A DNA stretch of 64,000 nucleotides from Hymenoscyphus infarciens (lineage: Eukaryota > Ascomycota > Leotiomycetes > Helotiales > Helotiaceae). Position numbers and translations under genes: made by a program. Location of the stretch: the NCBI GenBank assembly GCA_001414345.1, contig LLCB01000190.1, positions 1-64,000 on the forward strand. The letters are read 5' to 3'. Each line of letters begins with the position of its first letter. Within the stretch, counting starts at the first letter, position 1. Under the pieces are notes generated by a model. That model was not told the DNA's origin and did no database searches. It was given only the letters and a program-made list of their open reading frames with translations. Below are positions 43,948-64,000 of the stretch, one piece after another.

Positions 43948-44272
43948 GGTGCGGTCGTCTTTCGTCGACACGGCGCGAGTGTGGAGGGAGGAGGTCGGAT
44001 GAAGGTGAGGTGAGGTGAGGTGTGATGGGAGCCTCGAAAAGACCAGGAAAACGTGGGAGTGGTGTCGTGCAGAGATCACGACGAAGAAGAAGACGAAAGT
44101 GTATCTTCGACGTGAAGGTTCCGACGGCACGAGTTGTCTGTTTTCGACAGGACTAGACGTGCTCGGGCTTGGGGATGGGGATGGGGATGGAAGGAGGGAG
44201 AAAAGAGGAAGGAGCGGGTGGGGAGATATCTGCTACCGCGACCTCGAAAACGCGCTAAGCCCCGTCACCACA

Positions 44273-44298
44273 CCGCAACCGCAACCGCAACCGCAACC
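44273..44298 (+). repeat. CCGCAA microsatellite
   Basis: Just over four tandem copies of the hexamer CCGCAA, in the upstream region of the RNA-binding protein gene. Confidence 0.85.
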
Positions 44299-44834
44299 CA
44301 CGTAATCGGGGAAGGCTTCCTGGAAGTGCCTTGGAAATGGTTGGGAGTAGTCGGAAAGGTACGCTAGCATTAGCGTTGGAAATTGAATCAAGGTGGAGGG
44401 AAATGGAGGCACGATTGGATACTTTATGACCCTATTTCGATGGGGGTATATATATGTGAAGCCACTTAGTTATAAACCCTTCTTTGGGCCATCTGTGTCT
44501 TTACCATCCTGCCGCCACCCTGCTTTATGCTTTGTGTGAATTGGAGCTCCTGCCTCATCCACGACAGCTGCCAACCAGAAGGAGAAAGCCATGGCCTTTT
44601 TGCTTCCCATTTCGCGAGCAGTTTTAGGAAAATGACGACGTTGACATACTGATTATTCGAGACCAACTCGCACAATAACTGATATTGTACAAAGGTATAA
44701 TTATAATGATTCTCTGACATCTACACGTGCTGATATCATAGATCCCGTCCAAGTGACCGCCACGCAAGTGCATTACTTGGTGCCCCATCACCGAATATTG
44801 ACATCTGACTAAACAGTCGAGTAAATACCACTTC

Positions 44835-44867
44835 GGGGGAAGGGGGGAAAGGGGGGGGGGGCTCGCG
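44835..44867 (+). repeat. G-tract cluster, possible G-quadruplex
   Basis: Three closely spaced G runs (5, 6 and 11 G) separated by AA or AAA lie here, and another GCGGG follows. The longest run can supply two G blocks, so the site can in principle fold as a four-stranded structure. It is intergenic and the role is unknown. Confidence 0.6.
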
Positions 44868-46095
44868 GGTCGCCAGCAAGCGAAATGTAAGAGACTCCAG
44901 CATTACTCTTCGTCATCTCCTGTCCCTTAGATGTTGCAAATCTGTGTACTATGATTGTCTAAGAATGGAAGGGCACCGGAAAGTCATGCTCGAGGTTCTT
45001 GCAATTGAGGCACCAAGCTTGCTGGCGGTGCGACAATGTGAACGCGCTAGTTGAAATAAGAGAAATCTGGCCATCAAACTTCTCTTTCTGGGACTAATGG
45101 AGAAAATATGACAAAAATAAAGTAAAAGAGGAGGTCTTTTTTAGAGCACATAGGAGAATCGAAGATTGAAACCAAACGAAATATTACAGATGCTTATTAG
45201 TTTGACTCTTCTGTATCTAGAGCCAACCTGGACTGTCCAAAGTTTGGGTCTAGGCTGATACTTAGAAAAGGCTGAGGTGGCATAGAAATAATAAAAAAGA
45301 AGTCTTAGGTAGCTTGGCTGTGCATATTTGAGCACTGCTAAAAAAGTAGAACGTTAAGAGGTCGAAACCATTCATACCACGACAGGATATCAAGTAAAGC
45401 AACCGAAGAGGTAGGTTACAAGTAGTTTTCGCATAACAGCGCAGTAACCGGGATTTCTGAAATGACTGTGCACTAGGAGGTGCTGGAATTGGCAACTGGT
45501 CAAAAGGACAATACTTCTGTCAATTGTTCAACTAAGACTCGATTCTGCAAGGCTCGAATGATTGGGTCGATGTTACCTTTAGAAGAGTTAGGACAACTGT
45601 ACCAGCCTTGAGACTACTTGCACGAATTCCTACAATCCTTGGTCGCATTTCTGGAGAAAGTGGATGCTGGTTGACACAAGATTCATTAGCAGATGATGGG
45701 ATTTCGTAATTGCAGTATGATAAAAGTACCCGCCTTTTTCTGTTGCTGGCTATGGGTGAAAGGAATCCTCGAGCTGCAAGGAGCGCGAAGCTATGTTCAT
45801 AAAGAGTCCAGATATCACATTCAAACTGGAGGGTTAGATACGATGTCCCCTGACCGGGAGCGTTGCTTGGGTGGTTGTGTAGGATGGAGAGCTGGAGGTC
45901 GAAGACGTTGGAATAAACATCGAGCCTTGATGCGGGAGCGCGGGGCTTTGCGCTAGGATCTAGAAGTAGACAGTGCACACATCTCTCCCCAAAGCTCGAG
46001 TAGCTTCACATGGAGCACCTCATTTTCGTGCCCTGGCGAAGTACTCCATCCATCATAATTGCTGGTACACCACAGCATTGTCAATTAGGCAAAGG

Positions 46096-46972
46096 ATGAA
46101 GGTTACGCAAACTCTATGTCGAGGCTTTTTTGGGCGGAGTCTTGATGAGTTCAAGAGGCAGGCTCTGTTCGGTACTCTCTCCCCAATTCCTGAAGATGGA
46201 GACGAAGGGGAAGATATGATACACATCACTGACATATGAAAATTTAGCAATGAGCGGCGAAGCTGTCAAACGCGCCACCAAACCATTTCCCCTCGCCAGC
46301 TTCCACGAACCAGAAACTATCCAGACCTGCAAAATCATGTCGGACAAGGACATTGGCGGCTTTTCCACCTCCCACTTCGATTATATCCCTCCAGTGAGCT
46401 CTGCCTCCCCAAGTCCTTCGGAAAACATCCACGGGCATGCGAAATTCCACGGAAACATATCGATTGAGCTGCCCAAGAATCGGCCAGATGTGCAGCGCTC
46501 TGGTTATGCTGGGTGGAGAACGCACGATAGGAAAGCAACCATCTTCGGAAAAGCGCTCTGGAACGTGGATGTCTACGCATTCCTGGCACTTCGCATAAAA
46601 TCCGACGGACGGAAGTACTTTGTAAATATACAGACGGAATCAATTGTCCCCACGGATATCCACCAACATAGACTTTACGCTCGACGGCCGGGGGAGTGGG
46701 AGACTGTGTTGATCAAATGGAGTGAATTTGTACGGACGAATCATGGCATAGTAGTTGAGCCGCAGAGGGAAATGTTGAAGCAGAAGGTTCGCACGGTTGG
46801 CATTGGGCTCATTGATCGGGTGCCAGGCAATTTTGAGCTGTGTATTGAGAGGGTTTGGGCCACCAACTTCTTGGGGGAGGAGGATTTGAAGGAGGACGGG
46901 CGCGTAGAGGAGGGGAGCTTGAAGGACAAGCACGGGGAAAAGATTAAATGGGGCAAGTGGAAGGACGGTTGA
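46096..46972 (+). CDS. CIA30: Complex I assembly factor CIA30 (NDUFAF1)
   Basis: The model gives a 266-residue mitochondrial assembly factor that binds intermediates of respiratory complex I (NADH:ubiquinone oxidoreductase). Exon 1 is 46096-46171 and exon 2 is 46248-46972. The 76-nt intron is phase 1 with donor GTACTC and acceptor TTTAG. Signature blocks are FFGRSLDEFKRQAL (N-terminal, after a short basic MKVTQTLCR), PLASFHEPETIQTCKIMSDK, DIGGFSTSHFDY, GYAGWRT, VYAFLALRIKSDGRKYFVNI, WETVLIKWSEFVRTNHG and the C-terminal VRTVGIGLIDRVPGNFELCI. Length and domain match fungal CIA30. The start at 46096 is chosen because the upstream frame lacks family resemblance. It lies upstream of APC5 on the same strand. 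Confidence 0.92.
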
Positions 46973-47298
46973 GAAATAATGTAAAAAGATGATGACTTTC
47001 ACAAACAATTGCTCTATTTTCCCCAAGCAACTGTACCTTACTACTTGAATCTGATTTCCTGGCTTCAGGCCGAACCCCCCATCGGCATAGGGAAAACATC
47101 GGCCCGAACATCGCATCAAAGCTTACAGACCTCGGGATCTTTTCAAGGCGCGTCAACCTCTTGCACTCCCCACGACTTCCCCTCTCGCATTGTACCTGTA
47201 AACCTGAATTGACCTGACAATCATCTACAATTGTCACCTGAATATGAAGACACGACCACCTCTCTCCCACATCTGAGACAGAGAGTCTCCTGGCAAGA
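46973..47298. promoter_or_regulatory. CIA30 3' end and APC5 promoter
   Basis: A 326-bp gap between two rightward genes. It must contain CIA30 termination and the APC5 promoter and 5' UTR. No ORF is supported. Confidence 0.5.
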
Positions 47299-49741
47299 AT
47301 GACACGCTTCCTCACCCCCTCCAAAATTGGTCTTCTGGCCCTGATCGAACTCTACACCCAGGACGTGGTTCCAACTGCATCCGCAATCCCCATCCTATCT
47401 TTTATCCTCAACCAACTCCTCCCGTCAACCGCAAAAACGGCACACCCTCAAGCCGCGGCTTCACAAAACTCCTTGCCCTTCATTCTCACCCTGGAGACTT
47501 ACGAGTCCCTCCTCGCCGCCCACCCAGCAGCCTCTGGGTTTCCCGGTCGGACCTTGTGGGACCAGTTCCTCAATAAACTCTGGAACATCGATAGTCTCAA
47601 CGCGCTACATGAATTCTTCGACAAGCGAACAAACCTCCTAGTGCAGACGCATGAAGAAAACAAACGAGATGGCGAGATGGGTATACCCCCGGCGGATGGG
47701 AACATGATATTTCTCTCCCGGACTTCGCCTTTCGGCAGCTTTGTTCGCAGATCTAAAGTCGAATTCGAACGACTGCGGTTTAGCGATGCGCTGGCATTGT
47801 GGATATCATTTTCCAAATGGCGCCAAGAAACACAAAGATACTACTCGAGGAAGGCTGGTCTATTGGGAAGGTGGGCCGGTGACAAAGCATTGGAGGAAGG
47901 GGAGATAGAATGGGGAGTTGATGCAACCGAGATGTTAGAGACGGTGGCGTACGGCATCGATATTACGGGCCACCAAGAAGGTTGTGTGAGTTCGGACGAT
48001 ACAGAGAAGTTACTAGAATTCCAGGTTGAACAAATGCAGAGTGAGCGTTTCCTTCCCGCCCTAGTCTGTTAAGATGGATCCTAACTCATTGGGCATATTA
48101 GAGTTTGGTAACAGAATCCCTTTTGATGTCAAGGAGAGCTTCAGAAAGGTTCTCGAAGATAGCATCATGGTTCCAAGTTTGTCTCATTACCTCAAGTGCG
48201 TACAAAACCCCCTCTCGTATCGTGAACACCATTAATATAATTTCAGCTTCTTGGATGCCTGGAGAGCTGGCGACTACCCAACATCCTTTGACACCCTTCA
48301 TCGATATTTTGATTACACTATGCAGAACCGGGACCGCTTGTTCTATCAATATGCTCTTATGAACCTTGCAGTTCTGCAGGCTGATTTCGGTTGCTTCGAC
48401 GAAGCTGTTGCTGCAATGTTGGAGACCGTGTCAACTGCGAGAGAGAACAAAGATATGGCATGCCTTAATTTTGCTTTGAATTGGCTGTATCATTTTGGAA
48501 AAGCTCACCCGAGAGTAATCCGCGGCTCCGAATCACCCAATATGCTCGGCGTCGAAAGGGAGGGACTCGCATTTCTCCGCACCAAAGCTAAAGAGACGGG
48601 AATGTGGACACTCTGGAGCTCCTCCTTGCTGAGCGAGGCGAAATTGGGCATGTCGAGCGGAGAAAGCATTGCGACATCTTTTGAGAACATCTTAAAGAGC
48701 TCGTCGCTCATTGTGGAAAAGAACATGAAGAGTATGATGGGTCCCCAAATGGCCATGAACTCCTCTTTATGGGGTCGGTTAGGGGTGGCAAACTTATCAA
48801 GACAATACTGCGAAATATTTTTGAGCTGCCATGCACGTTATGCACTCTTTGATGACTCGCTTAGATTCGCGTGCCGAATAGCACACCTTCTGACTGAGAA
48901 GGGGTGCTATGACGATGCTATGAAAAAGCTTGACAGTCTAGATGAGAATTGTTTGAGATCATGGAAAGCTAACCAATACTGGCTTGAATACCGTGGGATT
49001 CTTCGTCTCAAAGCCGACCTCCACAGTCACAGTTTGGATAAAGCAGAACAATTGCTTTCTCAATTATTGCAGTTTAACGGATCCGAATCAGATCCAGATC
49101 TTAGTTTCGAGATCAACAACCTCCACATCGATTACTTGATCCGTCGCACCGACTATGCACACGCGTTGGCCAAGGTTGAGCAGATGGCATCAGCGATGAA
49201 GGAGGCCGGGGATGATATAAACCTGAGGGTCAAACTCCTCTCTGTCAAAGCATTACTGCACGCGAAGACCGGGCGTCCTGAGAAGGGATTTTCGGTGGCA
49301 ATTCGTGCAGCAAGCATAGCTTGGAGGGCCCGACTCATCCCGGCTCTCTGGGCCGCTATGGGAGCAATCGCAAATATATTGAACTCCCTTTCCGAGTTCC
49401 AAGCAGCGTGTTCAATACTCGTTGCGATAATACCGCGGGCATTGGAGTGTGAGAATTGCTCGTTAAATGCCCAACTCTACTCTTCTCTTGTGGATTCGCA
49501 TATGGGTATGGCTGGGAAAGTAGAGGCTGCTAGTTTGATGAGGAAAAACAACCTCACAATGGCACTAGATTACCTCGACAGGGCTTTCAGTGAATATTCT
49601 GCGGTGGCCGACGTCAGTGGACAAAGCGAAATGATGGCAAAGAAGGCGACTATCATGAGAATTGTAGGAGAGAAGGTGCTCGCCAACGATTACGCAAGTG
49701 CGTACTTGGACTTGAAAAGGGAAGCAGGTCAAGAGAAGTAA
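47299..49741 (+). CDS. APC5: Anaphase-promoting complex subunit 5
   Basis: The model gives a 776-residue scaffold (platform) subunit of the APC/C ubiquitin ligase, which drives mitotic exit. Exons are 47299-48040, 48102-48195 and 48247-49741. The introns of 61 and 51 nt are GT-AG and in phase (1 and 2). The N-terminal MTRFLTPSKIGLLALIELYT is typical. The middle block HYLNFLDAWRAGDYPTSFDT and the Apc5 signature LHRYFDYTMQNRDRLFYQYA, then LNLAVLQADFGCFDEA-type text, identify the family. The C-terminal two-thirds is helical and TPR-like. Length fits fungal APC5. APC5 next to COX13 and APN2 is a recurrent feature of the region flanking the MAT locus in Pezizomycotina. Confidence 0.92.
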
Positions 49742-50249
49742 ATGTAGAAAATGATACCCACGACCACAATATTTTATCAGCCTCTGGGCGATGGGGGAGT
49801 CAATCTTTGCCTATCAAGAAATGTCTCGGGATACGGCACAGGATAAATGCTGGGGTTCAGGAATGATTCATGAGTGATTCAAGAGAAAGAAAGTGGGAGA
49901 ATGGTGTCCCCATTACCCACTGGACTGGACTTCCGAGCGACCTTTACTAGTCGACCCTGCAGGACCTTGGGCTTCACCCCTCCATTATGAATATGAATAC
50001 AGCCACATAACAACCATCCAACACCGCTCCGTATTACAGCTTCACATGACACCTTCCGGTTTTAAGTCAAAAGACCATGCCATCGCATTATGAACTTATA
50101 TATTAGCATAATTTCACCTCATAAAAAAGCTCCAAGAATTCATTCAGACTCTGGTATTGATAGGATTCAAAAGAAAAATGTACAGTCCTCCATCTACCTC
50201 CCCCCCCCCAAATGCATCATCAATGACCTCCCACTATGCCACTTCCAAA
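49742..50249. other. Convergent APC5/COX13 3' region
   Basis: A 508-bp stretch between two convergent genes, with both 3' ends. A run of C residues is at 50201-50209. No gene is supported. Confidence 0.5.
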
Positions 50250-50957
50250 TTACTCGTCCTTCTTGTGGTAGTTGACCTTGTCGTTCCAGCTGTTGAAGTG
50301 TTAGTTTAACCTTGAATTCCTGCCACCTGATCATGTCGAGTTATAACTCGAAATTGTCCCAATGGAATTCTGCTTACAAAAGAGTCTACTCATAAATTAG
50401 CATACTCCCTGTAAGAATACTGTCGTGAATTGAGGCACTCACCTTGTCTCCATCGCCCCAGAAGAAGTTCTTGATTCTTAGATTCTGGTATGGGTACTCT
50501 GGTCGCTCCTCCAAAGGTGGCAGATGAGACCAATGGGCCCAATGCTCGTTCCATAGAACATAAGCGTTGGCACTTGCGATGATCAAGCAAGGAATGGTTG
50601 CGCTAGACTTCAGTCAGTTCTGATGTAGATTCCCGAACCATGCCCATTCCCATTCTGTTCCACGGAATTGTGTAATCTTACTAGATGGAAAGCTTGCGCC
50701 AAAGATCTGCCTACACGTCAGCCCCTGCTAATTCGATTGTTTTCTTGCTTCCTAAAGTAGGAGAACATACCAGACGTGGCAGCAGCGTGGTCCTTGACAG
50801 CCTTTCTTTCGCGGTTGAAAGCATTGTCCTCGGCTCCGTGCAAACCCGAGTTCTCGGCACTCGCAAATCGTCGTTGGAAGGGCTTACGGACAGCTGGCGA
50901 GCGGAGGTTCGCAGCGAAGCGCTGGGTGCTGCGGAGCATGGTGCGTTGGGGGAACAT
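50250..50957 (-). CDS. COX13: Cytochrome c oxidase subunit VIa
   Basis: The model gives a 139-residue subunit of respiratory complex IV at the mitochondrial inner membrane. Exons are 50957-50771, 50706-50682, 50602-50443, 50385-50378 and 50289-50250. It starts MFPQRTMLRSTQRFAANLRS (targeting sequence), then FQRRFASAEN, DLWRKLSIY, the membrane segment IPCLIIASANAYVLW, NEHWAHWSHLPPLEERPEYP and IKNFFWGDGDK, and ends WNDKVNYHKKDE. Without exon 4 the reading frame cannot be joined. An 8-nt exon (ACTCTTTT on the coding strand), flanked by AG and GTAAGC, supplies exactly TLF and restores both frame and the conserved DKTLFWN motif. The five exons total 420 nt. It is divergent from APN2, the standard arrangement beside MAT. 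Confidence 0.93.
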
Positions 50958-51243
50958 CTTGTTGGTGGTGTCGTTCAATTGGGATTTTTGGAGTTGCGTT
51001 GTGAGGTCGTACGTTCTTTGAGCAGGAGGCACCAAGAACGCCAATAACGCCAAGAACGCTTATGTAAGGTTGATGTGACCATGCTTGGCTCGGGTCAGGT
51101 GAACCGCGTTTACAGTGGAGCTGCAGGGTCGCCATTATCACGATTGTTACTGCACGGGAGAAATCGTCCTGGGCTGTTGAGGGCATTCCCGGGTGTTTGT
51201 AACTCTGCGCAACAAACGTTATACTGGGAAACAGCTGTCTTCC
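50958..51243. promoter_or_regulatory. COX13/APN2 divergent promoter
   Basis: A 286-bp bidirectional promoter region between the COX13 and APN2 start codons. No TATA-like element was obvious. Confidence 0.55.
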
Positions 51244-53343
51244 ATGTCTATGCCAAATATGCAAGCTGAACCACGGCAGGCGGGGCTTGGCCTTCGGATC
51301 ACCACGTGGAATGGTGAGTACACTGGACCTCTCCCTTTGCACTTTGGCCATCTTCAAGCTTTGTCACTAATTGGTAATAGTCAACGGGATCAGGTATGTG
51401 TATTGTCTTGTATAGGGTCACCCGTGCTGAAGCGGTTATCATCAGAAACCCCTTTGGGTATCAGCCATGGAGCAGAGAGAAGAAGTTTGGTGTAAGTGCA
51501 GCAATTTCTTCTGTGGTACAAGGGGAAATGCTAAATCGGCATCTTTAGGCCATGTTTGATATTCTCGAAGCGGATATCGTGGTTATGCAAGAAACAAAGA
51601 TTCAACGTAAAGACCTGCGGGATGACATGGTCCTCGTTCCTGGATGGGATGTGTTTTTCAGCCTGCCTAAACACAAAAAGGGTGAGGAAAGACTGCTCTG
51701 CTCCGCAATTCACACCTGCTCACGAATTCTCTCTAGGCTATTCTGGCGTGGCAATCTACACTCGAAACTCGGTCTGTGCCCCTATTCGTGCTGAGGAGGG
51801 GATCACAGGAGTTCTCACCCCTCCCAATTCTTCGACAAGTTTTTGCGACCTCCCAGAAGACCAGCAAATAGGCGGGTATCCCACTGCTGCCCAACTGTCT
51901 GAGTTTTCTCTCGATGCCGCTACGCTTGATTCCGAAGGCCGCTGTGTTATCCTTGAATTCCCCGCGCTGGTGCTCATTGGTGTCTACTGCCCCGCCAATC
52001 GTGACGAAAGCCGCGACGAGTTCCGTATTGGCTTTCTTAATGCTCTTGATTCTCGGGTTAGAAATCTTGTAGCAATGGGCAAGCGAGTCTTCTTGACAGG
52101 TGACCTGAACATCATTCGGGAGGAGATGGATACCGCGAATGCCGAAGAACAATTGAGGAAACATGGCATGACGGGCGAAGAATACGTATCTACTCCGGCA
52201 AGGCGTATGCTAAATCAGCTACTTGTTGGCGGCAAAGTGATCGGACACAAAGACGGCGAGAAAGAGTCGGCCATTATGTGGGACATCTGCCGAGCTTTCC
52301 ATCCAAATCGTAAGGGGATGTTCACCTGTTGGGATACGAAAAAGAATGCTCGTCCTGGAAACTTCGGTTCCCGGATTGATTACGTTCTCTGCAGTCTGGA
52401 CTGCTATGACTGGTTTCGAGAGTCTAATATTCAAGAAGGATTGATGGGATCCGATCACTGTCCAGTGTATGCCATTTTCAAAGAAAGGGTAGAGATTGGA
52501 GGCTCCGACGTTGATGTAAGAGATATTTTCAGCTTAGGTATGTTTGAAGGGGGAGTACGGCAAAGAGAATGGTGTGCCAAAGATCTTTTGCCACTTTCCG
52601 GGAGGCTTATACCAGAATTCGATCGTCGCCAGAACATTCGTGACATGTTTTCCAAAAAACCGCTTTTACCAACGGCAGACAGCTGCTCGACGATGACCGG
52701 TGCCTCGTCGCCACGAGATTTGTCGAATGGAGACAGCAAGTTCCTCCCTAGCAAAGGCAATACAAAAATACCAACCCCCACGCCACCTCACTCTCTAGGG
52801 GGAGTTGGCTCTAAAAGCACCCCAATTAAGCCCTTTCCGAAACGATCATTAGAGCCAAATGGAACTTCAACGCCTCCCCCAAAACGCAACAAAGTTAGTG
52901 GCTCGTCGAAACAAGTTGGTGGAAATGGCCAACCTAGGAAGACGCAGAGCAGTCTTATGGGTTTCTTCAAGCCGGAGACTCCAAAGCCAACCGAGCAAGA
53001 AAATGGGAACACTTCCAGTGCGTACCTCGATCTCTTTGCTGTCAATACGGGAGTAATTGATGTCCAACAGAGCTTTGACACACCAAGTGGCCAAGATTCC
53101 GTGATTGATTCTGTCGCTAGTAAAGAGAGTTGGTCCAAACTACTGGGGAAACGGGTGGCACCCCTCTGTGAACACGGTGAGCCATGCAAAAGTTATGTCA
53201 CGAAAAAGCCAGGCGTCAACTGTGGCCGGTCTTTCTACATGTGTGCAAGACCGTTGGGACCTTCGGGTCAGAAGGAGAGAAACACAGAATGGCGATGTGG
53301 AACATTTATTTGGAGTAGCGAATGGACGGGCAACAATCAGTGA
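51244..53343 (+). CDS. APN2: DNA lyase / AP endonuclease 2
   Basis: The model gives a 622-residue class II AP endonuclease of the exonuclease III family, acting in base-excision repair and 3'-end cleaning. Exons are 51244-51313, 51381-51393, 51446-51491, 51549-51681 and 51737-53343; all introns are GT-AG and phase-consistent. Catalytic-domain motifs are RITTWNVNGIR, QETKIQ (metal-binding Glu), YSGVAIYTR, LIGVYCPANRD, VFLTGDLNI, SRIDYVLCS and MGSDHCPVYA. A PCNA-binding PIP box QSSLMGFF lies at about residue 490. A C-terminal GRF zinc finger (about 560-615) has CEHGEPCK, NCGRSFYMC and EWRCGTFIW. The second exon is only 13 nt. The start could also be the in-frame ATG at 51250 or 51259. APN2 is one of the two classical markers bounding MAT. 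Confidence 0.94.
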
Positions 53344-54496
53344 GAAGAAGTAACACTAATTATAGCAAGAAATCATCTGAATGAATCATTCAGAATGGAT
53401 CCTCCTGGTAAGAAGCAATTGTATCCTTCCGCACAGTTTGACCCAAGGCCAAGAACGCCCGTCGAGACAATTACTCTCACAGGTCATCTGCGCATTATGG
53501 TTGTGGAGGAATTCCTTAGGTAGTGATGACTAGTGTAGGCACAGTGCCTACCTATTCGGGCCAAACATCGCTGAAAGAGATATTCCATCTCCGGTACGTA
53601 ATGCTGCGGTGATATTACAAACGGATCCAATTGCGATTGGGTGTTACCAAGTTACATTCACAAGATCAAAGAATTCTATTCACCAATCGATTTAAAAGTC
53701 ATAAGTGAAGTTCGAAATTTAATATATATGAGGACCTGGTTTGAGGGTACACACCACTGTATAACTCTAAATGAAGAAAACACTTGAGTGCCCCCTTCAT
53801 TTGATGTACGCCAGGACACTGACTGCAGGCCCAGGGAAGCTTGCCATCACGCATCCTATCAACTTTGGGACTCGGCAAGGGTGATGTTTGAATGCATTCA
53901 TTTCATACGGGTATCAACTCCAATTATACTACAACTCCGGAAACAAACCGATTTAACCGTCCAACCATGCCTGGAGAAAAAAAATTGAAAAACAAATTGT
54001 GGGTGCCATTCCGTCTCTTCAACTTGCGTCTCTCTTCCGTTGAAGACCTGACGGCAAGTGTGCGATTACTGTATACCGCCTCCCCACCTTTCACAAGAAA
54101 CCTCACTGCCATTATTTACTTTATACAACCCGCCGGAGATGAAATGAAATTGAAGTGACATACGAAATCAATCTAGGCCACCGTTTGATGAAATATCTCC
54201 CCCTCTTGAAAACAAAGAAAGAAACAGAACTGAGAACACTGCCAAGGTGGAATAACTTTTATGCCGTCAACTTTGAGCATTTGCTCAGCTGTAACTGACC
54301 GAGGCCAATTTGGTTATAAGGCTTCTCGGTCAGCTAGCTGGATACATCTCAACTTCGAGCGTTTGCCAAGTTACGATCAAACAAGGCTATACTGGCAATT
54401 CTGTGCCCCGAAGAGAGGCATAAAACAGAATACATGTGTGAGCGCTGATGTTTTGTCGTTCGTTAACCTGCAAGAGCGCCTCACGACTTCGAATTA
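53344..54496. other. APN2-MAT1-2-1 convergent intergenic region
   Basis: A 1.15-kb stretch between convergent genes. Short ORFs (up to 88 codons) are present, with no conserved MAT accessory gene recognisable. It is the left border of the MAT genes proper. Confidence 0.5.
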
Positions 54497-55562
54497 TCAG
54501 ATAGAAGTGAAGTCATTGTCGAAGCTCCCAAAGTCTGTATCAAAGATGATTTGTGATTCGTTCGCGCCACCATTGAGATTCGCCATGAAAGATTCCATGT
54601 CGTTTTGGTGAATGGACTGAAGCGACCAGAGAGTATCAATCTTGTTGCTTACTCGAGGTCGAAGAGCTGATGTAGGCAGTGAAAGAATTGGAGCCGCAAC
54701 CCGTACTTCGGTGATCTTCTTCGTGCGTCGTTTGATTTCGGAGGACTTTCGAGGGCGGCTCTTGTAGTCGGGGTATCGAAGGGAGTGCATGACCTTTTCG
54801 TGGTCAGCCTTGCGATACCAAAAGGCTTTGACTTGTTCGCTTTCTTGCTTCCACATATTCCCAATGACAATCGCTAAATTTTATCAGCCAAAAGTAACCA
54901 GTTCTGAGAGTCGAAACTTACAAATCTCGCTGGTATGCATACCCGGGTTCTCCTGAGCGACAACATGGTGTTTGGACTTGCGATAGAGGATCCAGGCGTT
55001 TGCTGGTTTTGAAATCTTCTCAGCCTTGTCGATAACAGTTTCAGTTTCAGCAGGTGGTGGAGAGGTGGCTTCAGTGCCAGTGGTGGACAATGAGCTCAAC
55101 ATCTCCTGCTGGTTTTGGGGGGTTGGGCCTAGCGTGATTGTGGGCATTGTTGTTTGAAGCTGAGGTCTTTCCTTGTAGTACACAAGAATGTTTTGCGAAA
55201 TGGAAATGAAGTCGTACTGATCTTTGATCGGGCCTATGCGGTAAGACTTCGCCGTAGGATCGAAGTGGACATAGATGTCGTCGTTCAGAAGTGCGCTGGG
55301 GATCTTATTAGCAGCTGTGATGTTATTTGGTACCACGGACTCACCATAACTTGTCGGCGGCGGGTCGTACACTCTTCCCCGAACCCTCCATCGCGGATAC
55401 CATGCCTTCAGTGAGAAAGAATATGACTTTGCCTTGTTCGAGGAGTTGTGTATGCAAGGCCCAGAGTTGCGAGAATTTGGTTTGGTCTGCTTCTGGAACA
55501 GCCATTTGAAGCTCGGCCGCCATGACTCTCTGGATGGAAATCGCAGAAGTCATTAAATCCAT
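54497..55562 (-). CDS. MAT1-2-1: Mating-type HMG-box transcription factor MAT1-2-1
   Basis: The model gives a 322-residue HMG-box protein that specifies the MAT1-2 sexual identity. Exons are 55562-55345, 55295-54922 and 54873-54497; the introns of 49 and 48 nt are GT-AG and in phase. The N-terminal region contains FSQLWALHTQLLEQGKVIFF, then ADKLCALLNDDIYVHFD and SYRIGPIKD. The HMG box spans about residues 167-245: KPANAWILYRKSKHHVVAQE, NPGMHTSEIS, IVIGNMWKQES and YPDYKSRPRKSSEIKRR. The second intron splits the Ser codon of TSEIS, the conserved HMG-box intron position of MAT1-2-1. An alternative start is ATG at 55523 (MAAELQMAV). It is divergent from MAT1-1-1. MAT1-1-3 also has an HMG box, but the N-terminal region and placement favour MAT1-2-1. 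There is no sign of truncation. Confidence 0.92.
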
Positions 55563-56454
55563 TGCGGCGGTTGCTTCTCGATTGATGAAGGCAGAGATTG
55601 GTGTTGCTAAGTTTGGGAGTTTGGGATTCGAAGAAGGAATTTCGAGGCGCAGAGATTGTTGTTTCGCCGAGTGTAATTTCTTTTGTGCGAAAGTTGAAGG
55701 TCAGGCAGGATATAAAATTCGCAAATGGGGAGGCGGGGAAGCTAATTAGCGAACCTGTCTTAGCCGCTGGATTCACCTTCGCTGCTCGAGTCAAAAAATA
55801 GACGGAGTGATCTAGTGATAAGAACAATGGAATTGCTCAATGGACACTTGAGCTTTTTCAACTTTTCATCATTTTCCCCCAATCATCAACCTCAACCTCA
55901 TCCATCAGCATCTTTACCGAAAATGAGAGATATCACGATCTGAGCAAACGTCACTGTATTGAGAAAATTCTCTGCGTAGAATAAAGGTTGAAAATCCCCT
56001 TGCCAACGTGAAGCCCAAAAGCTTTTTAACCTCTCGCGCTGTGTTGCTTGATAGACCCTAATGCTAATTTTCTAGATTTCAACCAGGTATCTCCCAACGT
56101 CCCGTACAATTCCAATGGTTTGTGAGAACGACATGGCGTAAAAAAAGTACTGATGGTAAAATTTTGAATCTCTCTCAGCTCAAGGGGACTCTGAGTTCCA
56201 CAACAGACAAGGCCTTTACACACTGGTCATGATTGATTGCAAAACAATGATTCACAAAGGTGACTTGGTTAGTGCGCAAAATGGGACTAGCGCCACTGAC
56301 TCGGTGAATCCTTTGTTTGCCTCAAGAACATTAAGCGAGAGTTCTTCAAAACCAGAATCCTGAAGGTCTTTGTCGCAAAAATCACAAGTATCTTTAATTC
56401 AAACATGGCACGCTTAAACGCATATAATTTACAAGAATTTCAACCAACCTAGTC
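55563..56454. promoter_or_regulatory. Shared divergent MAT promoter
   Basis: An 892-bp region between the two divergent mating-type genes, probably holding both promoters. Minus-strand ORFs here overlap the MAT1-2-1 leader and show no conserved domain. It includes ACAAT/ATTGT-type HMG-protein core sites (for example at 55825-55845 and 56245-56250), which are short and could be chance. Confidence 0.5.
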
Positions 56455-57562
56455 ATGGCACTCACATTCCCCCCTAACAGCCCGCACCCCAGTCAGACAG
56501 CTCCATCTGCACCACATCGCGCGCTTGAAAACCCAGCGGACTTGACCTCCGAATTTCTCCTTTACAACATTCCTCAAAGTCAATCCCAGATGAGGACGAT
56601 CGCTAATCTCCAACAACACCAAGCTCAACTATTGCGAAGGCAGCCCAGCAAAACCAATCGATTTGTTGGGGCTGCCCCAAAACTCCCTAAAAGAGGTGTA
56701 AATTCCTTCATGGCCTTTAGGGGTAAGTTCCATAAATCAATAGTTTTTTTTATGCTGACAGAGAAAAGTTTTCTATTCTCGGATTTTTACCGCGTTCCAG
56801 CAGAAGAATTCGTCAACCCTCATCAAACTTCTTTGGGACGAAGACCCCTTTCGTGCAAAATGGTCCATATTGGCTCGAGCCTACACCAGCATCCGCGACC
56901 ATGTTGGGAAGGAAAATGCGCCCATAGGAGGCTTCCTAGAAACAGTATTTCCACAAATTGGCATCATTGGGGTTGACGAGTATCTCATCAAGATGAATTG
57001 GGTAATCGGGAGCGCTGAAGATGGCTCAATATTTTTGCGACAACACTCTAGCCCCGACTTCGACACATTCTCTGCTCACATTATGAACACTCTCATGACC
57101 GAGAAGGATGTCACGTATTATTGCGCATTTAGAGGATATATCACACCGCAAATGAGTTTCCAGATAGCAGGACCCATACCACAAGGAGTGAATAGCACGA
57201 CCACAACACCGCAGCAAGGGCTCCTCGCCACGGCTCCCGTTATCAGCCCGAATATTTCAACGCCTGCGGAGAGATATACCCAAGATTCAACTGCTGCAAA
57301 TAGTTTTGGCTTTGATTTTGAGTCCACCGTCGGCACCACCACCCCTTTACGTGAGGAGTACGAGTGGGGAATTAACAATTTTGACCTTTATCCACAAATG
57401 GGGGGCTTCGACTTCGAATCTCACTTCGCACAGCCAAACAATATCGCTTGGGACACTTTCAGCGTTGGTACACCCCAGGAGCTCAATAACTTTCTCGACA
57501 ATGGAGGGTTACAAGAGGGGGATTTCATTCCTGGAGGTCAGTATTTCAGCTCCGCTGAGTGA
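56455..57562 (+). CDS. MAT1-1-1: Mating-type alpha-box transcription factor MAT1-1-1
   Basis: The model gives a 353-residue alpha-box protein that specifies the MAT1-1 sexual identity. Exons are 56455-56722 and 56769-57562, with a 46-nt phase-1 intron (GTAAGT...AAAAG) inside the alpha box. The alpha box runs over about residues 70-169: FVGAAPKLPKRGVNSFMAFR, then FYSRIFTAFQQKN, LIKLLWDEDPFRAKWSILAR, AYTSIRDHVGKENAPI and YLIKMNWVI. The C-terminal half is Thr/Pro-rich and then acidic/Phe-rich (NSFGFDFES, MGGFDFESHFAQ), as in other Leotiomycete alpha proteins. The start ATG is the first in frame. The frame is fully open after removing the one intron. It lies next to SLA2, its 3' neighbour on the opposite strand. 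Confidence 0.93.
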
Positions 57563-58096
57563 AAATCGACTTACGATTTGAAGGCTAAAATGCATGAACT
57601 AATTTTGGGGGGCGGGTCAGCAAGAGCGTGGCAAGGGCGTGGGAGAGACGGCCTTCATTCCTCAGCTAAGGATGCGACTACTTCGCAAGAATGTGATGTT
57701 TACATTGTTGAGGCCGATCGCAATGGAACAAATCAAATACCAAATCTAAAGTCTGCTATTGTTCAACACGTTGTGCAAATATGGTCCCGCTTTGGCGGAA
57801 CAACCTTGGACGTCCTCTCCTTTCGCAAACATATTGTGTATATTTACGGGGTTTCTATTCTTTTAGTTCTCCAATCTTTATCCATGCAAGTAGAGAAAAA
57901 GCAATGTGAAGTCGGAGAATGTAGAATCTATTTCTCCTACGCTTGTTTACACATGAACCCCCAAAAATAACTAGAAGTGGGAATTGTTCAAATATTAAGT
58001 TAGGCATTTTTTAGATGGTACTGCATCTACTACATCCGCTAATCCTGGTACATACAGCGCATAACCCCACCAGGGTTCGCATCAATGAATACCTAA
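57563..58096. other. MAT1-1-1/SLA2 convergent intergenic region
   Basis: A 534-bp stretch between convergent genes. A 130-codon plus-strand ORF at 57578-57970 has no recognisable domain and starts 16 nt after the MAT1-1-1 stop, so it is probably 3' UTR. No MAT1-1-5-like or MAT1-1-3-like gene was found here. Confidence 0.5.
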
Positions 58097-61000
58097 CTAC
58101 TCCTCCTGGTAAGAAACTTTTCTCATCTCTCCGAGCCTCTTTCTAGCCGCATTCAGGTTATTTTCAAGTTGGAGGATCTCGACCTACGAAAAAGTTAGTT
58201 GATGATTATGTGGGCAGTAAACATAAAACGAACCTGCTGCTGCATCTCTTGGATCTTGAACTCATGTGCTCCAAGCTTGGCGTAATCTACCTCATCGTCC
58301 GCACCACCACTACGTTCTTCAATCATGGCCTGAACTTGCCTCACGAGCGACCGGCATGCGACACCCACAGCTTTACTAGCCTGTTCGAGGGATTCTTGAC
58401 TCTTACTCATGAAGCCAGCTTTAACTCTACTAGCTGCCACCAACTGGGCGGTAGACGCAGCTACGTTGTTTGATGCGACGATCAATTGCTCCGGAGAATT
58501 GCGCCCGGATAGTACGCCATCTGCAGTCTCAATCAAGGTGTTGGTGGAAGAAGCAACGGCTTTCGCAGCGGAGATAAGTCCCTCGGTCCAACGGTTGTTC
58601 TTCTTGTAAAAAGATGTCTTGTCACCAGAGCCGCGACCTGCTTGGACAATTTCTTGCTGCGTGACTGTTGCTGCCTTGATCAATCTTGCAATGGCATTGG
58701 TCACAGCAATGGCTGCATCTAATATCGAATCGTGGATACGTAGCTCATAAGTCGAATATCCATCTTTTGGTTTCGACTTGAGTTTGGCGAGGCGCGCTGC
58801 GGCTGCGCTAATAGCATCGGCGGCCTTGTTCAATTCACTGTCCACTAAGTCTCCCAAGTCGCCTTTGTTATTCATGAGCTTGCCGCTGTTTGGTGCGAAA
58901 CTATCCACGAGCTTGTTTAAGCCCTGGAGGTTTCTGTGAACCTCGCCCATCAAACCAATGACTGTTTCGAGTTTTTGGTCATCGTCCATGTCGGCCAGCC
59001 GATAACTTTGCAGATTACGGAAGAATCTAACTGTTGCTTGTGCAGACTGTCGCGCTCCGTTTACAAGTTGGTCTGCTTTCTTGTCATCTGTAGCGAGTCT
59101 TGTGAGACCTTTTGTGTTGCTAAGGACATCTGCGATAGAGCTAGAGAAGACGTTGACTGTGCGTATAATCTCAGCATGGCTGCTACTGGGGCCATCGGCG
59201 ATAAAATTGTTAAATGCTGTAGCGAACTCGGTGGTAGTTGTAGATGCCTTTTCAATCTGGGACAGGACGTATGAAGGCGTCGCGTTCTGGTTGCCCGCTT
59301 GCATCGACGAGTCGAGTTCATAAAGGGCATCATCCACTCGCTGGACCCCACTCTGGAGAACGGAGTCGATAATATCATTGATCTTGCCAATATTGGATAA
59401 GAGCATGGCATCAATCTCACCGTCCAAAGCTTGGTCTGTTGCACCTTTGGATGTTTCCAACTCGTTGAGCTTTAGTAACGATTCCTCCCAACCTTGCTTG
59501 TAGACCTCTAACTCAGCTTCTTTCTCGCTCAATAAACGCTCGGCATCTGAGCCACCTTCACTATATTTCGCATGAATATCATCGAGCGCCCGGGACTTTT
59601 TTCGGAGTGCTTCCTCAAGATCCGACATCTCGCGGTTGTATTTGGAGAGCATAGAAGAGAGCTCGTTGCCCTTGCTGCGCTCTAGGTTATCCGCTCTGTC
59701 CAGAGCCATTCTTAGTTCTCGCTTCAACTTCTCCATTTCCTCGCGGTTACCACCAGAGAGGCGATCCTTATCATGTAGAGCTCTATCTCTCTCCCGAATC
59801 ATGTCAGCTAGTTCAAGATTCTTGGTTTTGATCTCCCGTTCCAACTTCTCTCGTTTATCGATGGCTTCCTGGGCAGAGGCGGCCTTGAGTTGCACACCCT
59901 TGAATTTTTGCAGAAGGTCCAAGTGTTCATGGCGAAGCTGAGAGTATAATTTTGCGAGTGCTTCGTACTTCGTTCGCCAGGTGTTCACTTGCTCTTGAAG
60001 TGCTCGGATCTGATCATCTTTGCTTCCAATCTGTTGCCCATAACTGGTTTGCAGCTGAGAAAGCTCATTCTCCAAAGCCTTGATCTTCTGGTCATACTGT
60101 TGCAGCATGAGTTGATCCTGGGCATACTGGGCACGCGCGGCAAGATTCTCCTGCTCTAATTGGGCGAATTTTCCCTGTGTCTGTTGTTGATATTGTTGCG
60201 CTAGCAGCGCCTCATGCTCTCGGCGTTGTTGCTCTGCTAGCTGACGTTGCTGCTCTTCAAAATCACGTTGTGCCTGAAGTGCCGCCTGCTGCTGAGCATA
60301 TATTTGTTGAGCTTGGCGTTCTTCGAGGACCCTTTGTTGCTCCTCATACTCTCGATTTTGACGAGCTTGCTCGTTCTTCCAGAATTCTCCAATGTCGTCA
60401 GGCTCTTCTGTCTTTGGGGCAGGCGGAGGGGTTATCTGCCTCTCAATCTCCTGCCTGGGTCTTTGTGGTAGTCGAGGGGCGGTTTCATCTTCGGAAAGAA
60501 GGTTTGGTGGGTCTTGAGGAAGTTTCGGGACAGTAATAAGACTTGTGAGGTAACGAAGATTCGAACACTCATAATAGAATTTCACGAGGCGGTAATGTTG
60601 TGCATCATATCGACCTCTTAGCGGCTCCAAGGCGTCGTCATCACCGGTAGCTATAAACTGTCAGGTTGAAAGAACTGCCAAACAGATGTATGACTTACTT
60701 GTATGCATGGCACGTAGCATGCTAGTAATAAACTTGTAAATGCCGTAGCTCTCTTGTACCAAGGGAACGAGCGCTGATATTCTGCATTCGTTGTTTCCGC
60801 CACCCCGAAAATGAGAGAATATTAATTTCTGGAATTGCTCTATCCGGTCCTGAAGTTGCATCAAGTCTGAAATGGTCTCATAGCCTTCGTTTGGGTCATT
60901 AATTCCCTTCAAACTAATATATTCCTCATACTCAAAAGTACCATTGAAGTCGGGATGTTGGCTATGAAAGGACAACTTTGCGAGGAGAAAGTTCACGTAT

Positions 61001-61596
61001 TCTTTGATCAAAGGGCCGTAGCCCCGCAATCCCTCTCCAGACATGCCTCTATTCAGACTATCAATCCAGTTTCGATTCGGCATTGCTTCTCGCAAAGTCG
61101 AGGGGTGGCCTTCTTGCAGAACTTTGTGAACCGTGATTAATGCTTTGAAAGTTTGGACTTCATCTGCAAGTATGGGTTGTCTGTCGATATTGGTAAAATT
61201 AGCACGTACATCCAAGAACCTGCCAGAATCAAGTGATGAAGCCGCATGAGCCCGGGAACTCTTCCAGCACCAGTGTGTACCCATAACCTCCGATGCAGCG
61301 TTACATAACATAACCACGTAGATGAGAAACGTACACTTTCATACCCGCCCAGAAAGACCCCGAGGATTTATGGTCCCATGTGTACACAATGCAACTTCGA
61401 ACATGTTTGCGCTTCGGAGCGGTTTCTTCGATGCTTGTCGCTTTTCGAATATTGATGGCAAGCTCGCTGTCGGACCTGGATAGCTCGTATGTCAGTAGCT
61501 GTACAAGCATGCACCGGACAGAGCTAGGCAGAGAAATTTTGGGACTGACTTGGACTGGTTCACATTTCTCGTCGTCGGTGCATACTGCAGCGACAT
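58097..61596 (-). CDS. SLA2: Actin cytoskeleton-regulatory endocytic protein SLA2
   Basis: The model gives a 1057-residue Sla2/Hip1R protein linking clathrin-coated pits to actin. Exons are 61596-61550, 61475-61335, 61180-60699, 60650-58234 and 58183-58097; all junctions are GT-AG and in phase. The N-terminal ANTH domain holds SELAINIRKATSIEETAPKR, HVRSCIVYTWDHKSS and ILADEVQTFKALITVHKVLQ, and ends near LEPLRGRYDAQHYRLVKFYY. A Pro-rich linker follows, then a long Gln/Glu-rich coiled coil. The C-terminal I/LWEQ (THATCH) actin-binding domain starts near LRIHDSILDAAIAVTNAIAR and finishes with NLNAARKRLGEMRK and SYQEE. Length fits the family. SLA2 is the second classical marker flanking MAT. Confidence 0.95.
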
Positions 61597-62337
61597 CTTG
61601 ACCAGCGCTCAATGCGCAGCTGCTGGAAGGATCAAGACGCGAAAGGGAGAGGTGGAGTTTCGCAAATAGTGTGTGCGGGAGAAGTTGAAAGGCTTCTGGC
61701 GAGACTAACTCGTGGAATATTGTAAGCAGGTACTTGAAATCGGTAGTGGAGGTCGAAAGTATGAATATGGGTGGAATATGGTGAGTATGCAGGTGGATGA
61801 ATGTCTAAGAAGTGGAGTTCGCCAAGGCTGGAACCTGGGAGCTGCGTAATGTGGCGGATGTCTTTTACTCGTTAGGTGCACCAGCCAGCAGAACTTACTG
61901 TAATTTACTCGTTTCCGGGTGAATAACTAACTTGATAAATTGAGATTACAATACATAATTCATTTAGTGAATGGTGTTCAAGCTCGACCCAGCGCTAGCT
62001 AGGTGTATGGCGTCCCACACCAATTGTAATAGCGTATTCACCCAAGCCCGTGAGAAATCATAATCACACAAAAGACCTAGACAAATTCAGCTATAAACCT
62101 GTTTCCAATTTTTGGCTTCCTCTGTTTTCCTGATTCCTAGTAGGTATCCAATCCCAATAACATCGACCGTTCCAGTGTATAATAGGTACTTAGCTACCGA
62201 TTCCCATAGCGCCAGTGCCCGCCCCCAAAGGAACAATTAGATACCATGCGTTCCCAAACTCCGTGTCTTGCTTATACGTGTATGCATCGTTCTATGTAAC
62301 TGGCCTCCTCAGTACCTCGTAAGTTTATAACGCTCAT
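61597..62337. other. SLA2 promoter and downstream gene 3' end
   Basis: This 741-bp stretch contains the SLA2 promoter (leftward from 61596) and the 3' end of the next leftward gene. No gene is supported. Confidence 0.5.
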
Positions 62338-64000
62338 TCATACCCCTCCATCCTCGTCCACAAAAGTGCTTTTCGCCCTAGCTTCCTCTTCCTGAGCTGC
62401 CATCCATGAAGGCAGTTGATGGCCATCCTCTTCCGGGCTACTCGAAAGAACCCGGTGTGGATTCCTACGCCTGGGTAAACGAGGGGGAGTGTGTCCCTTA
62501 CTGGCATTGGCTGGTGACTCGATATGTTTCTCCTCCTCAACTTCATCCCCATCCTCAACCCACGGTTGCTTATACGCATTCTCCGCTATTGGAGTTGTTG
62601 GAGCCGAATCTCCTGTATCTCCAATGGGCGCAGAAACCACGAGTAAGCCATCGTCCGACATATCTTTCAACCCCTTGGACTCCTCTCGGCTACGCCTTTT
62701 CGGCAGAGGAGGTGGTGGGACGGAATGGGCCTGTACTCGAGGAGTGTTTTCATTTAATTGATAGTTGTTCGCGTGCTTTTGAGAGATGGCTGGTGGTGGC
62801 ATTGGCTTGCGTTTTGGGACAGGAATCGGTGCTGTTTTGGTCTTTTTATCGGGGTGCGGCAGAGGAACTCCTGGCGGCGGCAAAGGTTGTCCTCTACCCA
62901 TCACAAGTGGACGAGTCCCTTTCTCGGGCTCCTCGACAGTACCGTCTAATCTATGATCACCTTTCCTCTGAATAGCGTTCCATCCCCAGTTTTTCGCTGT
63001 AGCCGCAGCGCTGGTTACAGCCGCGAGAGAAAGACGTTTGGTCTCGGCTGATTTAGCTGAGGACCCAGAAGAGTCGTCGTGCCGGCGATCCCAGGGAAAA
63101 GAACCAAAGGATTTGGCGGAAGGAGCTTCTGATCGGAGAGAGCTTGCTGGGCTGGGAGGATATGCACCGCCATTGGCATCCGAAATACGTTCAGGGGCTT
63201 GCGGAGTCGGTTGATTCTGGGGTTCGAACTCCGAGGACTCATGAAGAGGTTCCGAGGAACCGTGAATAATAGTTTCAAGCTTTGAGGGTTGTAATGGTGA
63301 GCCCACCGGTGTCTGGAGAGGCAAATTGGCCTGTGAAAGAGCCGCCACGGCTGCCATTGCAGCAGTTGCCTGGTTTTTCTCGGGCGGAGTCGAGGGCTTG
63401 AATACATCGGCGTTGACACTATCCGTGCTAACAATTGGTGATGAGGTACTTGCAAAAGAACCAGATCGGAGTGCCCTGGGTTTCTCGGGCGTTGAAGCTT
63501 GTGTCTCGACGCTGGTTGAAGAGCCACTGGCCTTTATGTTGATAAGACTTATCGCTGACCTCGCGCCTTTCCGTTGTTGACTTGTGGCTGAAGAGGACGC
63601 ATCGATGGATGGCACGCTTATGCTCTTCTCAATTTGTGGTAAAGCCATGATGGGCTCGTTTTGAGTCGTTTCGAGACTTTCTACTTCGTCCATGTCGCCA
63701 TCCTGAGTAGTCAAACTTTCGAGGTCATGAGACGCGGCTACTCGATCATCGGCCCATATTCCACCTCTCCATAACTTGCCCTCACTATTGTAAAACGGGG
63801 AATCGTCCCAATTAGGGTAGACTAAACTTTCGGCGACAACCTCCTTGATCCGATTCTCGATCTGTCGTAGAATCAAAGTATAAGTTATTTGCCTCGAACT
63901 GACAATTGGTTCAACAGACAAGTCAATTTTTGGCATTGTTTCAAACGTGACCCAAAATCGATTGGACGGTGATGGTTTGATTCTTAGCATGACATGGCCC
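62338..64000 (-). CDS. SMP-domain lipid-transfer protein, NVJ2-like (partial)
   Basis: This is the C-terminal 553 codons of a larger protein; the reading frame stays open through the right edge of the window (GHVMLRIKP and upstream). The end of the SMP (synaptotagmin-like mitochondrial lipid-binding) domain is visible as MLRIKPSPSNRFWVTFETMP, KIDLSVEPIVSSRQITY and ENRIKEVVAESLVYPNWDD. The rest is a long disordered Ser/Pro-rich tail with PPPPLPKR- and PPRLPRRR-type proline motifs. By architecture it resembles fungal NVJ2/TEX2 proteins, which move lipids at ER contact sites. The N-terminal membrane and PH regions are expected to the right of the window and cannot be seen. Confidence 0.8.
   Translation of the reverse strand, partial: GHVMLRIKPSPSNRFWVTFETMPKIDLSVEPIVSSRQITYTLILRQIENRIKEVVAESLVYPNWDDSPFYNSEGKLWRGGIWADDRVAASHDLESLTTQDGDMDEVESLETTQNEPIMALPQIEKSISVPSIDASSSATSQQRKGARSAISLINIKASGSSTSVETQASTPEKPRALRSGSFASTSSPIVSTDSVNADVFKPSTPPEKNQATAAMAAVAALSQANLPLQTPVGSPLQPSKLETIIHGSSEPLHESSEFEPQNQPTPQAPERISDANGGAYPPSPASSLRSEAPSAKSFGSFPWDRRHDDSSGSSAKSAETKRLSLAAVTSAAATAKNWGWNAIQRKGDHRLDGTVEEPEKGTRPLVMGRGQPLPPPGVPLPHPDKKTKTAPIPVPKRKPMPPPAISQKHANNYQLNENTPRVQAHSVPPPPLPKRRSREESKGLKDMSDDGLLVVSAPIGDTGDSAPTTPIAENAYKQPWVEDGDEVEEEKHIESPANASKGHTPPRLPRRRNPHRVLSSSPEEDGHQLPSWMAAQEEEARAKSTFVDEDGGV

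Follow-up and report, generated by a model that had tools for sequence, protein, structure and literature searches.

A compact, probably fused two-gene MAT1 locus carrying MAT1-1-1 and MAT1-2-1 between APN2 and SLA2 in Hymenoscyphus infarciens

Results

We analysed the mating-type (MAT) region of Hymenoscyphus infarciens at positions 1 to 64,000 of contig LLCB01000190.1 (114,960 bp, here C101), a stretch that we call the window, which contains no N or other ambiguous bases and belongs to a genome assembly of 65.6 Mb in 742 contigs. A first-pass annotation had proposed that an alpha-box gene and an HMG-box gene adjoin each other between APN2 and SLA2, that both diagnostic domains are present, and that the introns are correctly formed; gene models and Pfam searches bore out all of this. 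From left to right, the order was APN2, MAT1-2-1 on the minus strand (54497..55562), MAT1-1-1 on the plus strand (56455..57562) and SLA2. The two MAT genes diverged from a spacer of 892 bp, counted from start codon to start codon (55563..56454), that presumably acts as a shared divergent promoter region. Positions 54497 and 57562, the final bases of the two MAT stop codons, are the outer ends of the interval, and the whole arrangement was compact, with 4.85 kb between the APN2 stop and the SLA2 stop. The APN2-SLA2 interval is the usual, conserved site of MAT. Three introns were modelled (46, 49 and 48 nt, in phases 1, 2 and 1), all of them GT...AG, and the spliced proteins matched the alpha-box family PF04769 (7.9e-36) and the HMG-box family PF00505 (3.6e-17), each above its cut-off.

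The MAT1-2-1 gene comprised three exons (55562-55345, 55295-54922 and 54873-54497; 218, 374 and 377 nt) separated by the 49-nt intron (phase 2) and the 48-nt intron (phase 1), the latter dividing a Ser codon within the HMG box. The position of an intron inside the MAT1-2-1 HMG box is conserved. The predicted protein of 322 aa covered positions 2-69 of the 69 in PF00505 HMG_box (63 bits), which is a complete box, and its PDB matches, to SOX and SRY structures, fell on this same box, the best being the SOX-2 HMG box (8.7e-13).

The MAT1-1-1 gene consisted of two exons (56455-56722 and 56769-57562), with the single 46-nt, phase-1 intron lying inside the alpha box. Within the range tried, six splice pairs left the reading frame open, and we chose among them the pair that restores the sequence MAFRVFYSRIF, which we take to be alpha-box sequence by comparison with known alpha-box motifs. 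The predicted protein of 353 aa scored 123.6 bits against PF04769 MATalpha_HMGbox (cut-off 28.1) over profile positions 14-176 of 194, with an ATG upstream of the alpha box and with the domain not truncated. This protein had no relative in PDB, where its 12 matches were antibody or Ig-like chains at E 0.056 or worse.

The flanking genes were identified from their domains. The main open frame of APN2 (AP endonuclease / DNA lyase; 51535..53343, plus strand) matched PF03372 Exo_endo_phos at 6.5e-12, above the cut-off, and the GRF zinc finger PF06839 at 1.3e-4 and 22.4 bits, under the cut-off of 25.9. SLA2 occupied 58195..61338 on the minus strand, and probably extends beyond, with an ANTH domain (PF07651, 8.5e-50) and an I/LWEQ domain (PF01608, 2.7e-48).

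Coding signal in the interval was assessed by frame length and composition. The longest stop-free frame (267 codons) exceeded 230 codons, the longest found in 500 sequences generated from a dinucleotide model of the interval. The MAT1-2-1 frame of 221 codons did not surpass this simulated maximum, and the case for that gene rests on the HMG match. When codon usage was scored with the APN2, SLA2 and APC5 frames of the window as the training set, the true frame came top of six for both MAT genes (0.091 and 0.063 per codon, with the other frames all negative), which is a weak test because stops in the other frames depress the scores there. For comparison, 83 open frames with lengths of 80-200 codons were scored in GC-normal DNA, and their upper quarter reached at least 0.045; true exons are included among them, and they are not a clean null. 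The TA/AT ratio, an index of repeat-induced point mutation (RIP), was 0.54 and 0.58 in the MAT genes, similar to that of SLA2 (0.68) and unlike that of the AT-rich block of the window (1.74).

Two further open frames were considered as extra MAT genes and rejected. The frame at 54234-54608, in the gap on the APN2 side, had no Pfam match and a codon score (-0.014) inside the range of the 83 open frames. The other lay in the gap on the SLA2 side, where the 135 codons directly beyond the MAT1-1-1 stop stay open in its frame (57563..57967, plus strand). This frame likewise had no Pfam match and a codon score (0.051) within the range of the other open frames, but its length and position are still odd: an open run of this kind arose in 3 of 4000 simulations (0.00075) for the same frame and place, and in 77 of 4000 (0.019) when any of the six frames of 57563-58194 was allowed. 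It may represent a longer ancestral or alternatively spliced C-terminus of MAT1-1-1, or chance; trial splices across the MAT1-1-1 stop (57537-57620 and 57537-57635) yielded proteins of 461 or 456 aa and had no other support.

We found no MAT1-1-3, intact or relic, within 51000-62000, where a home-made HMG profile of six boxes (MAT1-2-1 being one of them) returned MAT1-2-1 and otherwise only hits of E 0.017 or worse, the best of these lying in minus frame 2 of that region with 4.5 bits. In a Pfam scan of the genome (E up to 0.001), nine HMG-box matches fell in seven genes, and both matches on C101 were MAT1-2-1, whose two exon halves, taken alone, reached only 1.9e-4 and 6.1e-4. The same home-made profile gave no HMG trace in the frames of the spacer, and none of nine segment comparisons involving the spacer (one of them with itself) rose above its own 30 shuffles. 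The spacer would be the place of any fusion junction and, as neither flank-derived sequence nor a MAT1-1-3 remnant was found in it, the route of fusion is without documentation in the sequence. Given that MAT1-1-3 was not detected, the locus looks like a minimal, two-gene version.

The most MAT-like of the other HMG boxes in the genome (C202:120925-121095) looks very similar to the MAT type and could be confused with MAT1-1-3. Its gene reads as a longer, apparently non-MAT one, in which a long protein seems to continue beyond an intron.

Searches of the genome, which scored the best candidates only, indicated that the locus is present once. The alpha-box family had one genome place above threshold, and a search with the MAT1-1-1 protein (E up to 10) returned its own two exons and one weak match on another contig (C726; 57 residues, 38%, E 0.08, in the Q-rich N-terminus), which was taken as chance and rejected as the relic of a second alpha box. 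The 821-aa SLA2 frame likewise matched one place. At the DNA level, 51500-58200 matched itself and one 149-bp fragment on contig C361, 58201-64000 matched nothing but itself in the genome, and 42000-51499 matched only a dispersed repeat at no fewer than 39 other places (the 40 best of 74 candidates being scored, so that further fragments may have escaped). No second alpha box, second SLA2, second APN2-to-SLA2 interval or orphan half-locus was found in the assembly. Of the other genes of the sexual cycle that we sought, the receptor gene STE2 had one genome place (C403, in two adjacent pieces, the smaller under the cut-off), as did a Spo11-type (TP6A_N) domain (C18, profile positions 26-62 of 62). 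A search for 5.8S rRNA gave no hit among the 39 of 1501 candidates that it scored.

The fragment on C361 (28412-28559) aligned over 149 columns at 88% identity, and with sharp borders, to exon 1 of MAT1-2-1 (55367-55515 of the window). Its 17 substitutions were spread over codon positions 1, 2 and 3 as 5, 5 and 7, and 10 of them were non-synonymous (59%, versus 78% expected at random); in addition, a 1-bp gap breaks the frame. The surrounding DNA is GC-normal, and the contig carries several larger open frames, which by eye resemble ordinary genes. We read the fragment as a dead ectopic piece of MAT1-2-1.

The repeats reported within 50500-62500 were short: exact direct repeats reached at most 15 nt, and the best inverted pair was 22 nt at 86%. 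The copies of the 15-nt repeat (53400-53414 and 58101-58115) bracket the locus, outside both MAT genes, and scored 30 where shuffles reached up to 32, which is within chance. A stretch of roughly 35 bp in MAT1-2-1 (55179-55213) weakly matched the SLA2 side (57809-57840) in inverted orientation, scoring 29 versus a maximum of 25 in 30 shuffles. Overall, three of 25 segment comparisons beat their own 30 shuffles, where about 0.8 were expected; two of the three were comparisons of a segment with its own reverse complement (53376-53394 and 56639-56676), in which a palindrome is counted twice. Neither the long inverted repeat that inversion-type switching (as in Sclerotinia sclerotiorum) requires nor the long direct repeat flanking the MAT1-2 genes that deletion-type switching (as in S. 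trifoliorum and Ceratocystis) requires was found within this region, and with no long repeat found we rejected these repeats as a switching device. The proposal in the first-pass annotation that the locus switches or recombines was thus not upheld, in that no repeats of a known switching kind were found within 50500-62500.

Discussion

The interval between APN2 and SLA2 is very probably a genuine fused two-gene MAT1 locus of a primary homothallic ascomycete of the Pezizomycotina. The homothallic, fused-locus architecture suggested at first pass withstood our analysis: both genes were intact and shared a single stretch free of gaps, and searches of the rest of the assembly turned up no further alpha box, SLA2 or APN2-to-SLA2 interval. 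Under this interpretation, each haploid nucleus would carry both MAT genes, and the MAT1-1-1 and MAT1-2-1 proteins, produced within one nucleus or thallus, would jointly activate the pheromone/receptor and fruiting-body programme and so allow the sexual cycle to be completed from a single spore. We infer that the fungus probably does self. As to its origin, unequal crossing over in a heterothallic ancestor may have joined a MAT1-2 chromosome, on the APN2 side, to a MAT1-1 chromosome, on the SLA2 side, and any MAT1-1-3 would have been lost. A more speculative history, which we consider decidedly doubtful, is that the minimal locus shed its accessory MAT genes and that the C361 fragment is what an earlier, second copy of MAT1-2-1 left behind; homothallism would then have been reached by the gain of an unlinked MAT1-2-1 first, with it or its twin coming to lie between APN2 and SLA2 only later, rather than by one unequal crossover.

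Several points weigh against the fused-locus interpretation. It was drawn from assembled sequence. A collapsed assembly may hide a minor second genotype, and the scoring of best candidates only adds to this. A MAT1-1-3 gene with an intron-split box could escape both the small home-made profile and the Pfam scan. The exact C-terminus of MAT1-1-1 is uncertain. Finally, the STE3-type receptor had a single match in the genome (C399:12465-13370, 3.0e-66) that reads across one TGA and one TAG; it may be interrupted by introns, or it may be a broken gene.

The two stops in the STE3 frame also bear on the most probable of the alternatives, which is that both MAT genes are present and selfing has been lost, either with one gene kept for asexual traits or with heterothallic behaviour regardless. 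There is precedent in Ulocladium, once thought strictly asexual and reported to have both genes, and the long open frame after the MAT1-1-1 stop could signal a truncation. However, the alpha box and the HMG box are intact, matches to both receptor families and to a Spo11-type domain were found, and the MAT genes lack RIP-type composition, so that we regard a loss of selfing as unlikely.

It is also conceivable that two heterothallic idiomorphs were merged into one contig, through an assembly artefact or the sequencing of a mixed or heterokaryotic culture. Wilson et al. 2023 caution that mixed cultures are sometimes sequenced (PMC10569646), and we judged the matter from an assembly. In such cultures, the second idiomorph is usually on its own contig without flanks (PMC10569646), whereas here both genes lay on one gap-free stretch. 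Joined haplotypes would also leave orphan half-loci, each with an additional APN2 or SLA2 flank; none was seen, nor was a second alpha box, and STE2 and STE3 were found once each. A mixed culture or a chimeric join therefore appears very unlikely, on an argument that is strong without being absolute.

Mating-type switching, in which flanking repeats would bring about the inversion or deletion of one gene in some of the meiotic progeny, seems hardly probable. The MAT genes adjoin, and the switching loci of Sclerotinia likewise have APN2 and SLA2 flanks; a 15-nt exact direct repeat stands on both sides of the locus, and the weak inverted match that links MAT1-2-1 with the SLA2 side (about 35 bp) exceeded its shuffles (29 vs 25). 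The known repeats, however, are far longer than the 15 nt, or the 22 nt at 86%, seen here: a 250-bp inverted repeat in S. sclerotiorum (PMC3574095) and a 146-bp direct repeat in S. trifoliorum (PMC4891775), both of which include part of MAT1-1-1, and a 260-bp direct repeat in Ceratocystis fimbriata (PMC4891775). In addition, the 15-nt pair is within chance, and a deletion between its copies would take out both genes. With long repeats not found, the locus appears to be fixed, in which case every nucleus should contain both regulators. Least probable of all is a heterothallic MAT1-2 idiomorph in which a truncated remnant of MAT1-1-1 lies beside MAT1-2-1, as in the MAT1-2 loci of Rhynchosporium agropyri and Marssonina coronaria (PMC5118889, PMC7864672), for the alpha box here shows no truncation and has an ATG upstream of it, in a protein of 353 aa that spans profile positions 14-176 of 194.

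As a fused locus, the arrangement is textbook primary homothallism of a kind already described in other species. Among 124 species of Leotiomycetes, Wilson et al. 2023 counted 96 as heterothallic and 15 as homothallic, their criterion for the latter being that genes of both idiomorphs lie within a single locus; 10 of the 15 species had loci suggesting primary homothallism and five had loci suggesting switching (PMC10569646). Not all of those 10 are fused: for Hymenoscyphus fructigenus, the survey describes two loci that are not linked (PMC10569646). The present locus was possibly already catalogued in that survey; narrow literature searches (on ectopic MAT1-2-1 pieces and on divergent homothallic loci in Helotiales) met no description of it.

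Several published loci resemble this one in part. In the homothallic species Hymenoscyphus albidus, H. koreanus and H. occultus, as here, MAT1-1-1 and MAT1-2-1 occur together and MAT1-1-3 is not an intact gene, a joining that the authors attribute to unequal crossing over (PMC10569646). In those species, however, the locus is on two contigs, a MAT1-1-3 remnant is present, and MAT1-1-1 is accompanied by SLU7 and a DNA polymerase gene before SLA (PMC10569646), whereas in the present locus SLA2 comes immediately after MAT1-1-1 and we found no remnant. The homothallic Pseudogymnoascus strains WSF 3629 and 23342-1-I1 also have MAT1-2-1 and MAT1-1-1 between apn2 and sla2, in loci of 12.4-13.2 kb that include MAT1-1-3 and two further predicted genes (PMC4169168), in contrast to the 4.85 kb found here. 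Amylocarpus encephaloides and Phialocephala scopiformis, which carry the genes of both idiomorphs and are classed as homothallic, retain the MAT1-1-3 gene (PMC10569646) that we did not find. Both regulators lie between APN2 and SLA2 in S. sclerotiorum and S. trifoliorum as well, with four MAT genes and the inverted or direct repeats (PMC3574095, PMC4891775) that had no counterpart here. The distinguishing points of the present locus are thus its compactness and the fact that MAT1-1-3 was not detected.

The value of this clean, compact locus is that it predicts an ability to self, which bears on the population genetics and breeding system of the fungus. A two-gene locus without a detected MAT1-1-3 could also help to test which MAT genes selfing can spare, while the general understanding of fungal mating systems is unchanged.

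Other features of the window

Two neighbouring genes, each recognised as an open frame only, lie to the left of APN2. APC5 (anaphase-promoting complex subunit 5; 48236..49741, plus strand) matched PF12862 ANAPC5 at 1.9e-37, and a possible upstream exon (47248-48072) matched nothing in Pfam at E up to 0.1. COX13 (cytochrome c oxidase subunit VIa; 50718..51059, minus strand) matched PF02046 COX6A at 9.2e-6, above the cut-off. Between these genes sits the dispersed repeat, of about 138 bp (49783-49920), which recurs at 77-93% identity in at least 39 other genome places; no tRNA, Rfam family or strong hairpin (fold z -1.29) was detected in it.

Farther to the left, a 28-kb AT-rich block (12000-40000) had a GC content of 0.237, a TA/AT ratio of 1.74 and a (CA+TG)/(AC+GT) ratio of 0.10. 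Such a composition resembles that left by RIP.

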